From positions 1,860,001-1,924,000 of the forward strand of contig CAKKNE010000005.1 of the NCBI GenBank assembly GCA_918797485.1: a stretch of 64,000 nucleotides of DNA, written 5' to 3'. Origin of the DNA: Pelagomonas calceolata (Eukaryota; Sar; Pelagophyceae; Pelagomonadales; Pelagomonadaceae). The position numbers and the translations under genes were made by a program. How positions within the stretch are numbered: position 1 is the stretch's first letter; the number at the start of each line of letters is the position of its first letter. This document shows, piece after piece, positions 3,523 to 33,584 of this stretch. The notes under the pieces are model-generated. The model worked only from the letters and a program-made list of their open reading frames with translations. It was not told the DNA's origin and did no database searches.

Positions 3523-4452
3523 TTACGCCGCCGCCGGCAACACCACATCAAATTCGTTCGCCTTCTTCCGCCGCGGCCGCAGCCGGTGCTCGGGCGCCGG
3601 CGCCGGCGCCGCGTCGGCCCCGCCGGCGGCGAGGCAGAGGTGCAGGAGCCGCGGCGTCGCGCGCCGCTCGAGCTCCACGAGGCCCGCGCGCCGCAGGACG
3701 GCGTCGAAGCGCGCCGGCGTCGTGGCCGCAGACCTCTCGAGGCACGACCGCGGCACGACGAGAAAGCACAGGCCCCCCGGCCTCAGGTGCGCCACCAAGC
3801 CCGCGACCATGCGGCCCCGCGCGGCGGCGTCCGGCAGGCAATTCAGCACGAGCGCGCAGACGACGACGTCGTAGGAACCTGTGTGGAAATCAGAATTTAG
3901 GCGCCCCACGCCATCGACGCGACGTGCTTCCGTAGCTGCGCCTGTGCGATGGCGTGGCGATTCCACGCCATCGACGCGACGTTGTCCCCGTGGCCGCGTC
4001 GTAACATAACTCACTGGTTGATTTCCGCGCAGGTAGGAACCCTGCGGTCGCAGGTCGAAGAAGTCGACGCGCTCGATGCGTTGCATGCTGCTCCGGACGT
4101 CGATCGCCCGTACGGCCAGCCCGCGCGCCTCCAGCAGCTGCGTGTTGACGGCGCCGACCTCGAGCAGCGCCGGCGGCCGCGCGTTGGCGGCGGCGCCGAG
4201 GACGCCGCGCCGCCGCAGGACCCGGAGCACCCAGCGCGAAGTGGAGTGGAGCGCGGTGCTGAGCGCGGACGCCTCCTGGTAGCGGCCGCGCCGGGCCTCC
4301 AAGACCCGCTCCGCGGCCGCGCGCGCCGCCGCCGTGGGCGCCCGCGCCGCGTCCTGCGCGAGCCGGTGGAACTCGCTCGTCACGCGGCGCGCCACGCGCC
4401 GCGACGCGATCGGCGGCGGCACGAGCGGCGCGTCCTTGCGCTTCTTACCCAT
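3523..4452 (-). CDS. BMT2: Bmt2-type 25S/28S rRNA adenine-N1 methyltransferase, interrupted by an introner
   Basis: Two exons, complement of 4041-4452 and 3523-3878, give 255 residues from MGKKRKD. An in-frame ATG seven codons upstream (4473) is possible. Residues about 80-110 carry the SAM-binding strand LLEVGAVN and the partner IDVRSSMQRIERVDFFDLRP. After the intron comes the family hallmark SYDVVVCALVLNCLPDAAAR, then LRPGGLCFLVVPRSCLERS. This order (LLEVG, DF-DLRP, LVLN-x-P, LFLVLPRSC) is that of Bmt2 (yeast YBR141C), a nucleolar enzyme that methylates N1 of an adenine in large-subunit rRNA. The 162-nt intron is a multiple of three without a stop, so the unspliced frame also stays open. 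Removing it joins FFDLRPQ directly to GSYDVVV, which restores the family alignment. A hairpin copy of the promoter motif lies about 30-90 bp upstream of the ATG. Confidence 0.85.
   Translation of the reverse strand: MGKKRKDAPLVPPPIASRRVARRVTSEFHRLAQDAARAPTAAARAAAERVLEARRGRYQEASALSTALHSTSRWVLRVLRRRGVLGAAANARPPALLEVGAVNTQLLEARGLAVRAIDVRSSMQRIERVDFFDLRPQGSYLRGNQPVSYVTTRPRGQRRVDGVESPRHRTGAATEARRVDGVGRLNSDFHTGSYDVVVCALVLNCLPDAAARGRMVAGLVAHLRPGGLCFLVVPRSCLERSAATTPARFDAVLRRAGLVELERRATPRLLHLCLAAGGADAAPAPAPEHRLRPRRKKANEFDVVLPAAA
3879..4032. mobile_element. Introner element 1 (154 bp) inside the Bmt2 gene
   Basis: The element is bounded by inverted termini CTGTGTGGAAATCA (3879) and TGATTTCCGCGCAG (4032). 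It is flanked by a perfect 8-bp target-site duplication GTAGGAAC at 3871-3878 and 4033-4040. On the gene's strand the upstream duplicate reads GTTCCTAC and supplies the 5' GT, while the element's own terminus supplies ..CACACAG. The intron is therefore 3879-4040, 162 nt. Inside, CCACGCCATCGACGCGACGT occurs twice in direct orientation, so the copy has an internal duplication. The architecture matches what is published for introners of Micromonas and Aureococcus. The perfect duplication suggests a young insertion. Confidence 0.93.
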
Positions 4453-4477
4453 TATTGCTGCGCTTGCACGCACACAT

Positions 4478-4538
4478 ATTAACTAGCGGTAATAAGACAC
4501 TAGCAAACTTTGCTAGCGTCTTACTGCCGCTAGTTAAT
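4478..4538. repeat. 30-bp inverted repeat with 1-base loop, both arms carrying the promoter motif
   Basis: Arms 4478-4507 and 4509-4538 are inverted copies with three mismatches around a single base. Each arm contains CTAGCGG..TAAGAC[AG]CTAGC, the gene-start motif found elsewhere. The right arm covers the stop codon of the gene at 4534-4923, and the left arm begins 25 bp upstream of the Bmt2 ATG at 4452. It could act as a cruciform, a 3' processing hairpin for the upstream gene, a promoter for the downstream gene, or both. Confidence 0.85.
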
Positions 4539-4923
4539 ATGCTCCTCGGACCATCAACAATATGATTTTGCAGACCAACCAGTAGATGCCTTTTACGGCG
4601 CCCAGAAAGAGCTTATCAGAGGACGTGTCGCAGAACAAGAAGTAAAACACCTTCCAAATGAAGAAGAGGCCGACGATGTCGCGGTGCTTGGCGAGTGTCG
4701 GCGCCGCAAACTTGATCGCTTCATAAGCCAATGCGACGATGCCGTTGAACATGAACTTGACGAACCCAAAAACGAGCACGAAAGGCGCCAAGCAGGAGGA
4801 GAAAAATTCCTGGGGCGTCATCGTGGCCCGATTCGTGGGCCTGCGAGGACGCGGGCTTTTCGTGCTCGCCGGCGCGGCGGCGCCGCCAGGGTACAAATCA
4901 AACATAGGGATAGGCCGGCCCAT
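4534..4923 (-). CDS. Small membrane protein, unknown family
   Basis: This 129-residue frame starts at ATG 4923 (MGRPIPMFDLYPGG). A Pro/Arg-rich N-terminal third is followed from residue 38 by three likely membrane segments: about 44-62 (FLAPFVLVFGF-type), 84-100 (DIVGLFFIWKVFYFLF) and 108-127 (LGAVKGIYWLVCKIILLMV). It ends in the stop at 4534, inside an inverted repeat. Codon use is more A/T-rich than its neighbours. I do not recognise the family. The segment TMTPQEFFSSCLAPFVLV could be a mature N-terminus, but there is no cleavable signal before it. A piece of its 5' coding sequence (FDLYPG) recurs inverted at about 5243-5269. Confidence 0.65.
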   Translation of the reverse strand: MGRPIPMFDLYPGGAAAPASTKSPRPRRPTNRATMTPQEFFSSCLAPFVLVFGFVKFMFNGIVALAYEAIKFAAPTLAKHRDIVGLFFIWKVFYFLFCDTSSDKLFLGAVKGIYWLVCKIILLMVRGAY

Positions 4924-14237: not shown

Positions 14238-17200
14238 TTAGGTAGCGCGCGCCTCGCGCCGGACGACGTCGGTGATGGCGCGGCGGCGCGTGCGCATCTG
14301 CGCGAGGCGGTCCTGGAGCGTCTTGGCCGTGGCGAGGTTTCCGGAGCCGCGGTCGCGCAGGCCGGCCAGGGACTGCTCGCACTGCGCGATGGTCGCGTCG
14401 ATGGTCTTGAGCGCGTCCGCGGCCGTCGACGCCGCGACCTGCTCGGCGAAGTTCGTGACGAGCGCGCAGCGCTTGCCGAAGCGGAGCGCCTGGAGCGTCT
14501 CGTCGGCGTGGTCGTGGCGCCGCCGGCAGCAGACGACGGCCGTCGTCCGCGACGCGCCGCCCAGCGCCGCGCGGAGAAGGCAGGAGAGTTTTGATTCCAG
14601 ATATGGGATGTGGCCCCGGCCCTCGACGAGCGCCGCGATGACCTTGCCGAGCACCATCAAACTCCCGTTGATGGCCACGGCCTCGCCGCACCGCGTCGCG
14701 TCCTTTATCGCGCCCGACTTGTAGATGCGCTCCGACCCCGCGAGATCGACGAGTTGGAGCGTTGACTCGAGGATCCGGTCGCCACGCGACTGGCGCACGC
14801 GTGCGACAACGACGGAGTGGGCCCTACTCGATCGCGCGTTCATCTGGGTAACGGCGAAGCGCTTCCGTACAGAACCAGCGCGCAGTAATCGCAACGCATC
14901 ATCGGGCGTCGCGACGCTCGCCTCGACCTGCGAGCAAATCAAAATTTAGGTGCAACTCATGTTGGTTGATTTCCACACTGCCCACGACGCAACCGATGAG
15001 TTCGCCGTTGTCCCGCCGCACATCGCAAGCCTCCCCGGTCAGAAGATCGACGCACTGCTCGTTGTAGATCTCCACATACTGGAGCGCCACGCTCACGTCG
15101 GCGTGCAGGAGGTCGCGGAGCGTGCGGATGACGAGTCCGTCTGTGGCGTCGTCGCTCGCCTCGAGTGCACCGGGAGGCCCGAAGGCCGTGTGCGTCTTGC
15201 CGCTGCCCGTCTGCCCGTAGCACAACACGCAGGCGTTCAGGCCGTTCAGGACCGCGGCGACGGCCGGCGCGCCGACGGACGCGTGGACCCGGGCCTGGTC
15301 CTCCTCCTCGAACACGCGCGAGAAGGGGAACGGCCGCACGCCGGCGCCCGGGACGTGGACGACGACGCGCGTCGGCTGCACGGCCAAGACCTTGGCGCCC
15401 GACGGCGCGCGCCGCGGCGCGTCGTCCGCTTCCGTCTCCGTCTCCGCCTCGATCTCCTTTACCTGCGCCTCGGCCTTCTCCAGGCCCTGGGTGAGCTGCG
15501 CGGCCGTGGCCTTCGGCGTGTCCTCCGCCGGCACGCGATCCCGCGCGTTCGCGGCGTCGTCGTCCTCTTCGTCCTGCTCCGCGAGGAGCTCGCGCCGCGA
15601 CGTACGCTTCTCGGCCTCCTCGGCGGCCGCGGCCGAGGCCGCGAGCCGCTCGGCCTCCAACACCGCGTCGAGCACGGTCGGGTCCAGGGTGTTCGACCCC
15701 GCCAGCCGCTGGACGACCTCCGAGCCCGCGACCCCGACGGCAGCCGGCGCCCCGCGCGTCTTGGAAAAGGCCTTGAGCTGCTCGCGAACGTCGCGAGCCG
15801 GTTCGAACGTCGTGGACGGGTCCAGCCGCGCGCCGTCGTAGGGGTCCGTGCCCCGCCGCCGCAGGTGCGCCTCCGCCCAGGCCCGGTCGACGACGACGCC
15901 CGACGGCAGGCGCACGGGCGACGTCATCTCGCGCCCCGTGACGGCGTCCAATAATTCCGGCGGCGCCGCCGCGGCGCCGACCAAGGGCCCCTGGTCCTCC
16001 GTCGCGTCCTTGCGCCGGTCGCGCTGGAGCTTCAGGTACTGGTGCAGCGGCAGCACGACGTCGTTGGACTTTGCGACGGCGACCTCGTCGCCCTCGTCCT
16101 CGGGCCGGAAGCGGACGCAGACCTCGATCTTGAAGTCGCGCTTCGTGCGACCCGCGTCGTGGTCCCACTTGAAACGCGCGGGCCAGAGCTGGTTGAAGAA
16201 GAGGCGCTTCCAGGCCATGGCCGCCGCCGTGGAGGCGTTGGCGGTCGACGCGCCGGGCGCGGGCGCGGGCTCGGCCGGCACGAAGAGGCCTCGTTCCCTT
16301 CCCAGGCCCGCGCAGGCCGCGTGCCAGACGGCCGGGGCCGCGTCGTCGGACTCGAGGACGGCGCGCGTCGTCGCGGAGAGCGCGTGCAGCGTGCCCACGT
16401 CCCGGAACCCGACGAAGGCCCCGAGCGACGCGACGGAGCCCGCGTCGCGGAGGACGTCGAGCAGCGACATGGCCTCCGATGGTGCGGGAAGCGTCGACGG
16501 CGCCGCGCGGCGCTCGTCCAGATCGGCCCAGCAGAGGAACGCCGCGTCCTCCTCGGGAACAGCGTCGACCTCGTCGGCGGCGAAGATCGACTTCTTCTTG
16601 TTCGCCGCCGCCGCGGCGCTGTAGGGGTCGTGCTTCCCGTAGACCTCGCGCAGCAGCGCCGCGTCGCAGCGGCCCGCGCACCACGGGTCCAGCGACCGCC
16701 AGAAGACGTTCGTGATGTCGTAGAACTGCGACGTGTAGCGGAAGGAGTCGTGGACTTCGACGCAGCCCCAGCGGTTCCGCGACCCGAGCGTCGACTCGGG
16801 CCCGGTCCCGAACTCCTCCCCGAGGAAGATCTCGACGTGGACGATGTTCATGCGCTGCTGCTTGTGCCGTCCGCTCCGGTAGGTCGCCTCGACGAACATG
16901 AGGTCGCCCGGCCGGAGGTCGCCGAAGGCGACGGCGTCGGGCAGCGTCGAGAACTGGTACGCCTGGTTCCAGTTCCCGAGGTCGAAGCCGAAGTCCGCCC
17001 GCAGGTCCTGGACGCACCGTCGGATCAAATTGCAGCAGTCCAGATACAAGGGCTTGCCGTACAACGGATCACCGGGCTTGTGGTAGCGCTCGGCGTAGGG
17101 CGTGCCGATGTAGTGCTTCGCGCGCTCGATGAACTTCCGGCGGAGCCGCTCGTTGTCTGCGGTCGGGTCCTTTGCCCGGCGCGCCGCGGCCCGTCGCGCC

Positions 17201-32668: not shown

Positions 32669-33584
32669 CTACTTGGACGGCGACTTCTTGGGGGACAGCT
32701 TCTTGGGCGAGAAGCTAAAGGAGCTCTTCTTCTTCGCCGGCGCGGTGGCGACGCCGCCGCGCGCCACGAGCCAGGCGTGGGCCGCGGCGTGGCCCTTGGC
32801 CTGGGCGACGTGCGTCGGCGTCTCGCCCGTCGTCGCGGGCGCGTCGATCTTGGCGCCGGCGCTCACGAGCATCTCGAGGGCCTCGACGTTGCCGCACTCG
32901 GCCGCGACGAAGACCATGTTCTTGCCGGCCTTGCGCGCCTTGTCGACGTCGCAGCCGCTCGCCTCGAGCACGGCGCGGACGCGCCCCAGCAGCTCCTTGC
33001 GCTCCTGCTTGACCTGGGCCGGCGTCGGCGGCGGTGGCGCCGTCTCCTTGGGGGTCGCGACCTGTGTGGAAATCAGCGAGTGAGTTAGGTTAGCCTGAAA
33101 ACTCCACGCCATCGAGCAGACGCAGCTACGGAGACACCATCGCGTCGATGGCGTGGGGCGCCCGAAATTTGATTTCCACACAGGTCGTGACCTCGACGGG
33201 CGCGACGGGCGCCGCGACGCGGGAGCCGTTCGTCTCCGCCTTCTTCTTGCCGCCGAGGGCGAGCACCGCCGCGACGAGGGCGAGCAGCGTGCCGCCGAGC
33301 ACCTTGCCGTGTTCGACGGCGAACGCCTTGGCCCGCTCGAGATAAGCCTCAGCCGCGCTCGGCTCCTCCTTGGAGGCCGGAACCTCCTTGGGCGCCGGCG
33401 TCACGGCCTGCGTGAGCTTGCTGAGCGCGGGGGGCGGCGCCGCGGCCTCGTCGGCCGCCGCCGCCGCCGGCTTGAAATACGCGAGCGTCCGCGCGAGCGT
33501 CGGCGCCGGCGTCTCCGTCGCGCCGCCGGCGAGGCTCGCGGCCGCCGCCGCGATGGCCAGCAGGGCGCTCGTGACCTGGACCAT
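32669..33584 (-). CDS. Signal-peptide membrane protein with C-terminal ankyrin repeats, split by an introner
   Basis: Exons are complement of 33192-33584 and 32669-33061 (131 codons each), giving 261 residues. Exon 1: signal peptide (MVQVTSALLAIAAAAASLAG), an Ala/Pro/Glu-rich region and one membrane segment (VLGGTLLALVAAVLAL, about 95-112). Exon 2: a short helical part (VKQERKELLGRVRAVLEASG), two ankyrin repeats (NMVFVAAECGNVEALEMLVS and TGETPTHVAQAKGHAAAHAW), then a Lys/Ser tail (SPKKLSPKKSPSK). Without splicing each half terminates in intron sequence. With splicing the frame passes PVE to VATPKE. The location is probably endomembrane or plastid, and the role unknown. Confidence 0.8.
33062..33183. 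mobile_element. Introner element 3 (122 bp), opposite orientation to element 1
   Basis: Termini CTGTGTGGAAATCA (33062) and TGATTTCCACACAG (33183) form near-perfect 14-bp inverted repeats. Flanking 8-mers GTCGCGAC (33054-33061) and GTCGTGAC (33184-33191) match at 7 of 8. The intron is 33062-33191 (130 nt), with GT from the target duplicate and AG from the element. Reading this copy on the minus strand matches element 1 read on the plus strand (GGGCGCCCCACGCCATCGAC, then CCGTAGCTGCG, CGATGGCGTGG, AACTCACT). Both are spliced from the minus strand, so the family functions as an intron in both orientations. Confidence 0.93.

Follow-up and report, generated by a model that had tools for sequence, protein, structure and literature searches.

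A probable introner, with a splice donor attributed to its target duplication, in the Bmt2-like gene of Pelagomonas calceolata

A 154-bp element in a Bmt2-like 25S rRNA methyltransferase gene of Pelagomonas calceolata is very probably a MITE-like introner, that is, a non-autonomous DNA transposon turned spliceosomal intron, whose donor would come from the 8-bp duplication that flanks it. The gene lies in a window of 64,000 nucleotides (positions 1,860,001 to 1,924,000 of contig CAKKNE010000005.1, assembly GCA_918797485.1), to which the coordinates given here refer unless a locus or contig is named. For the family to which this copy belongs, the proposal that the duplication supplies the donor and that either element end supplies the AG of the acceptor is well supported by the sequences compared.

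The insertion in the Bmt2-like gene

The gene occupies 3523-4452 on the minus strand and matches PF11968, with exon 1 predicted at 4452-4041 and exon 2 at 3878-3523. The element (3879-4032, minus strand) belongs to subfamily A and is about 49 bp shorter than the 203-bp form. It had been claimed, from the letters alone, that identical 8-bp flanks surround it, and this is the case, as the GTAGGAAC copies at 3871-3878 and 4033-4040 agree in 8/8 positions. The former is the downstream copy on the gene strand and remains in exon 2, while the latter is the upstream copy, reads GTTCCTAC on the gene strand and offers a GT donor at 4040-4039; at the left copy, a ninth matching base is the first C of the element itself. 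The 154-bp body and the 14-bp inverted termini of that sequence-only reading were also exact, the termini differing from each other by two C/T differences (counted with one flanking base pair per side, they measure 16 nt, at 88%). One terminus, CTGTGTGGAAATCA at 3879-3892 (plus strand), reads TGATTTCCACACAG on the gene strand and gives the AG acceptor, and the other, TGATTTCCGCGCAG at 4019-4032 (minus strand), reads CTGCGCGGAAATCA. The element also contains a 20-bp direct repeat, with copy 1 at 3906-3925 (plus strand) and copy 2 at 3963-3982.

The predicted intron (3879-4040, minus strand, 162 nt, GT...AG) would comprise the element and the copy of the duplication that lies upstream of it. GTTCCTAC, as read on the gene strand, opens with GT, the element closes with TTTCCACACAG, and cutting out 4040-3879 fuses CAGG to GTTCC. 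These 162 nt are 3 x 54 bases without in-frame stops, so that an open reading frame at 3523-4473 (minus strand) reads through. When PF11968 is compared with this read-through frame, it matches in two stretches (92.5 bits), whereas the environmental protein P0007, in which exactly these 54 codons are absent, is matched in a single stretch at 102 bits. The intron RNA is predicted to fold better than its shuffles (z -3.4), but selection for hairpin pairing is not claimed, as the variable TIR positions 4 and 6 lack clear covariation. Just upstream of the Bmt2 start, at 4475-4541, there is a 33-bp inverted repeat that is 91% complementary and has a 1-base spacer.

The insertion had been called young because of its perfect duplicates, a view that comparison within the family does not sustain. 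Between the Bmt2 copy and the consensus of subfamily A, 15/154 sites differ (9.7%), which places this copy 41st among the 48 subfamily A copies of at least 140 bp from the first 97 copies collected, the best-kept of which differ by 3.1%. Furthermore, L124 and L127, at 10.8% and 13.4% from the consensus, also have 8/8 duplications; age can thus hardly be read from a perfect duplicate.

The introner family and its splice donors

The P. calceolata genome comprises 32,445,274 bases in 8 contigs, described in an excerpt of the genome paper as 32.4 Mb in six nuclear and two organelle contigs with 0.45 introns per gene (PMC9481584). The terminal motif CTGYGYGGAAATCA has 961 + 938 = 1,899 exact matches in it, against 1 + 0 for the reversed control. 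Two subfamilies have this motif in common, and each includes a 203-bp form; as 203 + 8 = 211, this form fits the published intron-length peak near 210 bp, which the same excerpt likens to Aureococcus introner elements, so that introners in P. calceolata were already hinted at in print (PMC9481584). Element sizes range from 53 to 204 bp in the 97-copy set, and the shorter bodies, that of the Bmt2 copy among them, look like deletion forms.

We read 155 distinct copies with differing flanks (the first 97 and 58 more), which were picked not at random but through three similarity queries and from their position on contig 1, and which include one segmental duplicate pair (L032/L033). Their duplications match in 8/8 positions in 81 copies, 7/8 in 35, 6/8 in 17 and at most 5/8 in 22. 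Among the first 97, 54 have 8/8 and 20 have 7/8; the resulting 74/97 at 7/8 or better compares with a mean of 1.6/97 when sides are dealt randomly and, together with the 1,899 termini against a control of 1, indicates that the paired duplications and terminal repeats are not due to chance. The expectation that many copies with 8-bp duplications would be found in genes was likewise confirmed by the 1,899 termini, by the 54/97 perfect duplications and by 121 copies that are confidently genic. The elements are short, with 14-bp TIRs, a constant 8-bp TSD and a high copy number, as in MITEs, and, as in introners, there are many similar introns at unrelated sites, with similarity stopping at the intron edges. 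The window holds two further members. One is a 122-bp element at 33062-33183, with duplication copies GTCGCGAC and GTCGTGAC matching in 7/8 positions, whose body runs against the gene and whose predicted intron (33062-33191, minus strand) measures 130 nt. The other is a decayed remnant of 53 bp with a 6/8 duplication and a predicted 61-nt intron (14928-14988, minus strand), in a gene that may be kinesin-like, judging by its translation. In viral contigs, a 20-mer and two longer motifs gave 0 matches, no Bmt2 relatives were confirmed, and a 17-mer present in 12 contigs was taken as chance, the paired end being at the site in none of them; one introner motif searched in prokaryote genomes also gave 0 matches.

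The gene strand at each copy was called from codon usage alone, using a model trained on the 24 ORFs of the window that are clear of elements. In the 121 copies with a confident call, the duplication starts, on the gene strand, with GT in 91, GC in 29 and another dinucleotide in 1, the local background for GT and GC together being 18%. On the opposite strand, GY is found in 30/121 (discordant copies 91 vs 1, p = 4e-26). GY is present in 70/71 copies whose body runs along the gene and in 50/50 of those that run against it and, as the same element is found in both orientations, its own sequence is controlled for. The acceptor AG is present in 121/121, which is largely built in, since copies were found by their ends. 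In 94/121, the length of the predicted introner intron is not divisible by 3, and the codon signal continues on either side in the 120/121 confident genic copies fitting GY...AG. The 34/155 copies without a confident strand call, kept outside the 121, have GT in 19, GC in 8 and other dinucleotides in 7; this group includes the Bmt2 copy (difference 5), whose strand was taken from Bmt2 homology. Among the confident genic copies, only L108:251-453 shows neither GT nor GC on the gene strand; its duplication is perfect (GAAACGAC), and its strand call is possibly wrong, as there is a GT on the other strand.

The dinucleotides immediately outside the 1,899 ends, read outward, are GT in 778 (41.0%), GC in 446 (23.5%) and YC in 136 (7.2%). 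These counts agree with the donor rule, which forecasts 41.0% GT and 20.5% GC from a 78-copy sample, or 43.4% and 18.6% from the 121 copies. Every copy with a duplication of at least 7/8 has GY on at least one strand (116/116), which makes insertions lacking a usable donor rare among the copies read. The first 8 intron bases match the downstream exon of the same copy, not other introns. Beyond GY, seven positions of the usual donor consensus served as a yardstick for U1, and the mean number of U1-like matches at these positions is 2.09 in introner donors and 2.12 at random GY sites. The rule thus suggests what the spliceosome demands of a new donor, namely GT or GC, with no measurable further match to U1.

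These data can be arranged in a simple model. The insertion made the 8-bp target duplication, as the anatomy shows. On the gene strand, the GT or GC of the duplication copy lying upstream would then act as the 5′ splice site, a step that the family rule indicates and that we extend to the Bmt2 copy, and the far terminal repeat, reading TTTCCACACAG, would serve as the 3′ splice site, so that the element and one duplication copy would be removed and the exon left exact. As the ends are inverted, both orientations of the element should work, the gene strand setting which end of the duplication must be GY. A transposase, assumed here to act in trans, should be blind to the gene strand; selection via splicing would explain the rule, with genic insertions being retained only at targets that have GY on that strand. 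The claim of an intron with its donor in the duplication and its acceptor in the element is upheld by the sequence rule of the family (120/121 GY), but it is at odds with the deposited NCBI model P0006, which has another donor.

Protein forms, competing explanations and the transposase

The intron of model P0006 spans 3879-4010 (minus strand), with a donor, GTTATG, within the element; this donor sits 30 bases further in, so that 10 extra codons are kept (30 bases of duplication plus element). A protein search with the read-through ORF returned near-identical environmental proteins, some of which contain the 54 codons (P0001, P0002, P0003, P0005, P0030, P0033, P0034, P0036 and P0041), and P0004, also environmental, reads through with 19 codons fewer, that is, 57 bp, which is the spacing of the internal 20-bp direct repeats. 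Fifteen environmental proteins that were read lack exactly these 54 codons (P0007-P0011, P0015, P0016, P0020-P0022, P0025, P0027, P0028, P0031 and P0039). The insert is also absent from the distant pelagophyte Bmt2 proteins aligned, namely P0032 (on a 58-kb contig, its pelagophyte placement being by similarity alone), P0046 and P0047. The near-identical matches P0012-P0014, P0017-P0019, P0023, P0024, P0026 and P0029 were left unread, and P0035, P0037, P0038, P0040 and P0044, which cross the insert edge out of frame or are chimeric, enter neither count.

None of the insert-free near-identical proteins read lies on a contig longer than 4.8 kb, whereas near-identical proteins on contigs of more than 5 kb carry the insert or read into it. 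The two forms may correspond to genomic and spliced sequences. Insert-free proteins would fit spliced transcripts or empty alleles alike, and empty alleles of the Bmt2 copy are not claimed as proven, given that these proteins are all from such short contigs. P0039, from a JGI contig of 1,892 bp, is without the insert, yet it reads through another introner upstream in Bmt2; it may represent an empty allele, and partly spliced RNA would look alike. Some minor observations concern the same proteins. P0039 and the MIF-like P0099 have apparent extra introner insertions that are absent from this genome, an insertion polymorphism in the wild. The forms P0003, P0020, P0022, P0025, P0027, P0028 and P0030 contain a 9-residue tandem repeat, AAANARPPD, whose copy number varies, and P0005 and P0031 start with a different N-terminus, rich in proline, as would result from a join to another gene or exon or from a chimeric assembly.

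Junctions were also read in two other genes. A MIF-like gene has an introner intron of 101 nt with a 7/8 duplication; among the 26/93 matches read (a near JGI match, P0132, was left out), P0089-P0093 show the exact junction predicted by the rule, the JGI matches P0113, P0121, P0125 and P0139 run into the introner, and P0094 has the insert in frame. An AAA-ATPase gene (L026:859-1402) has two antisense introners about 140 bp apart, one with a GT donor and one with a GC donor. In the 6 sequences read from the best 120 of 7,043 matches, P0182-P0184 are exact at both junctions, P0185 runs into the first introner and P0279 is exact at the second junction; its contig, without the insert there, measures 7.7 kb, which suggests an empty allele at the GC-donor site, not splicing.

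Three other explanations of the Bmt2 feature have to be considered. The intron could be spliced from the element's own donor, GTTATG at 4010, leaving 10 extra codons in the protein, and P0006 has exactly such a form; additionally, a nearby GTGAGT is well conserved across subfamily A, and the available part of PMC9860276 describes an Aureococcus introner that carries both splice sites and adds 12 bp. If so, sense copies could do without GY on the gene strand, yet 70/71 have it, and an internal donor would be useless for antisense copies, 50/50 of which have GY. Moreover, among 41 sequences read, the 10-codon form is found in P0006 only, which scores 97.7 bits on Bmt2 against 102 for the exact form. 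We consequently regard the use of this internal donor as improbable.

We give even less credit to the insert staying in the mRNA as coding sequence, so that the enzyme would gain 54 residues and there would be no intron. It is true that 162 nt without in-frame stops would, if retained, leave the ORF intact, and environmental proteins do read through (P0001-P0005, P0030, P0033, P0034, P0036 and P0041). Nevertheless, a gene caller applied to genomic DNA yields read-through ORFs, and it is the near-identical matches on contigs of more than 5 kb that carry the insert; the Bmt2 domain is split by it, and 94/121 of the sibling introns are not multiples of 3. Finally, the Bmt2 copy could have arisen by reverse splicing of intron RNA and not by DNA transposition, as a sublineage of the same family may have done (see below), but this appears very unlikely, the least likely of the explanations given. 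The two duplication copies at the Bmt2 insertion agree in all 8 bp, the opening 8 bases of the intron are those of the insertion site itself, family copies are found in both orientations, and L021, which has the same donor 8-mer, has its own duplication (7/8). The reading that we prefer is thus that of a DNA transposon with its donor in the target duplication.

For such a transposon, an autonomous partner with matching ends was not found among hAT, KDZ, P, MULE and Merlin-type transposases (PF05699, PF18758, PF21787, PF10551 and PF12762), the KDZ and P models (PF18758, PF21787) being weak negatives, as they matched in no control genome either. The search for these five families gave one match, a hAT ORF. 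It belongs to a complete-looking element at C4:4499549-4503199 (L078-L080), with a 721-codon frame containing the hAT dimerisation domain, a 14/14 TIR (CAGGGCAGCAGAAG) and an 8/8 TSD (TTGCTCGC). Its TIR is CAGGGCAGCAGAAG and not the introner's CTGYGYGGAAATCA, so we do not put it forward as the partner; further hAT elements may have escaped this search. In the portion of PMC3276498 available, an 8-bp TSD is also typical of the P element and, being common to both, it is not specific to hAT; a table in the same portion gives the hAT target motif, NTNNNNAN, as nTnnnnAn. A is found at position 7 of the duplication in 28/78 copies, against a background of 15%, and, among copies with a TSD of at least 7/8, in 9/41 with GT and 8/19 with GC, T at position 2 being confounded with the donor. 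This excess is a hint only of a hAT-type target motif, and neither the P element nor the hAT motif was accepted as an assignment, the signals being weak.

A four-copy sublineage and comparison with known introners

A body marker, AGAAAATATCG, is present in exactly 4/155 copies (L036:1202-1365, L042:1203-1366, L142:201-323 and L116:251-458), located in four unrelated genes. The bases before the element are, in that order, GTCGAGAG, GTCGAGAG, GTCAAGAG and (C)GTGAGAG, and the duplication matches are 4, 3, 2 and 2 of 8, i.e., none; 9 of the other 151 copies have duplications of at most 4/8, without a shared donor lineage. All four are read with the gene, the strand call of L116 being weak (difference 5), and two of the four sites start with GA and could not have worked by borrowing a donor. 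Between L036 and L042, 165 bp are alike at 96.4%, a similarity that ends where the intron does (with one shared exon base), and their flanks show no similarity past short chance matches.

The junctions of three of the four copies were aligned to structures. Without the unit, L036 aligns gap-free over 214 residues to a GDP-L-fucose synthase structure, L142 is gap-free around the junction to both ABCA4 domains, and L042 aligns to thiopurine methyltransferase (TPMT) gap-free at the junction, with the nearest gap seven residues downstream. The exon bases after L036 align to the conserved DGQxKKTASN, so a lost duplication is unlikely there. Conversion between introners would fit less well than movement of the intron as a unit, as it leaves unexplained a shared stretch that ends at the exon boundary. 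Eight pairs among the 155 copies have a donor 8-mer in common; therefore, sharing one is not rare, and what counts is its coincidence with the marker and the missing duplications. In L192, the element is preceded by GTTCAGAG and points the other way, with a 5/8 duplication and no body marker.

It may be, with a likelihood that we place slightly below an even chance, that this sublineage captured its donor and that the whole intron moves as a unit, for which reverse splicing or some other route through RNA would be the simplest means. The four copies are a lead rather than proof. If true, a DNA transposon would here be becoming a mobile and self-contained spliceosomal intron and, if the sublineage is real, one family would hold both DNA transposition and intron-level movement, with the step between them directly testable. 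Such a sublineage is not described in the open-licence literature, among the matches listed and in the portions of text available.

The introners of Aureococcus anophagefferens and Micromonas pusilla studied by Huff, Zilberman and Roy in 2016 are reported to be short TIR elements with a duplication, with one splice site carried and one borrowed. The P. calceolata family is alike in these respects, and the precedent that the sequence-only reading drew from Micromonas and Aureococcus holds in outline but not for the organism itself, which is Pelagomonas calceolata. By contrast with those introners, P. calceolata donors are GC in 29/121 copies (the likeness to Aureococcus being one of description, not of sequence), and the TSD-free sublineage with a putatively captured donor is found in P. 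calceolata only, as far as the accessible descriptions go. On the features tested, the family is, judging by its sequences, a TIR/TSD introner with a borrowed donor, a kind already described. About a thousand copies by end count, mostly well preserved in a 32-Mb genome, make it a set for asking how transposons become introns.

Among the open-licence matches listed, the genome paper (PMC9481584) is alone in joining introners and Pelagomonas, and the main text of the survey by Gozashti et al. (2022), which admitted copies in opposite orientations, has no mention of Pelagomonas in the part available (PMC9860276); a 2025 study on introner transposons is cited in the accessible text of PMC12768974. 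The Symbiodinium-type introners of that survey are similar in carrying the 3′ site, taking the 5′ site from the duplication and having TIRs, but the duplication is 4 bp in the example given in the available part, compared with 8 bp in P. calceolata (PMC9860276). According to an excerpt of PMC7789003, Aureococcus elements always have direct repeats, constant-length TIRs and canonical splice motifs. The same excerpt describes Amoebophrya introner elements, which, like those studied here, have inverted ends, a possible hairpin and direct repeats that span the intron boundary, but these repeats measure 3-5 nt and the introns are mainly non-canonical, whereas the P. calceolata introns would be GT/GC-AG (PMC7789003). 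Fungal introner-like elements, which lack TSDs and TIRs, are read in the available text of PMC9860276 as spread by reverse splicing. The four-copy sublineage is likewise TSD-free and has exact boundaries but, unlike the fungal elements, it keeps its TIRs and descends from a family with 8-bp duplications.
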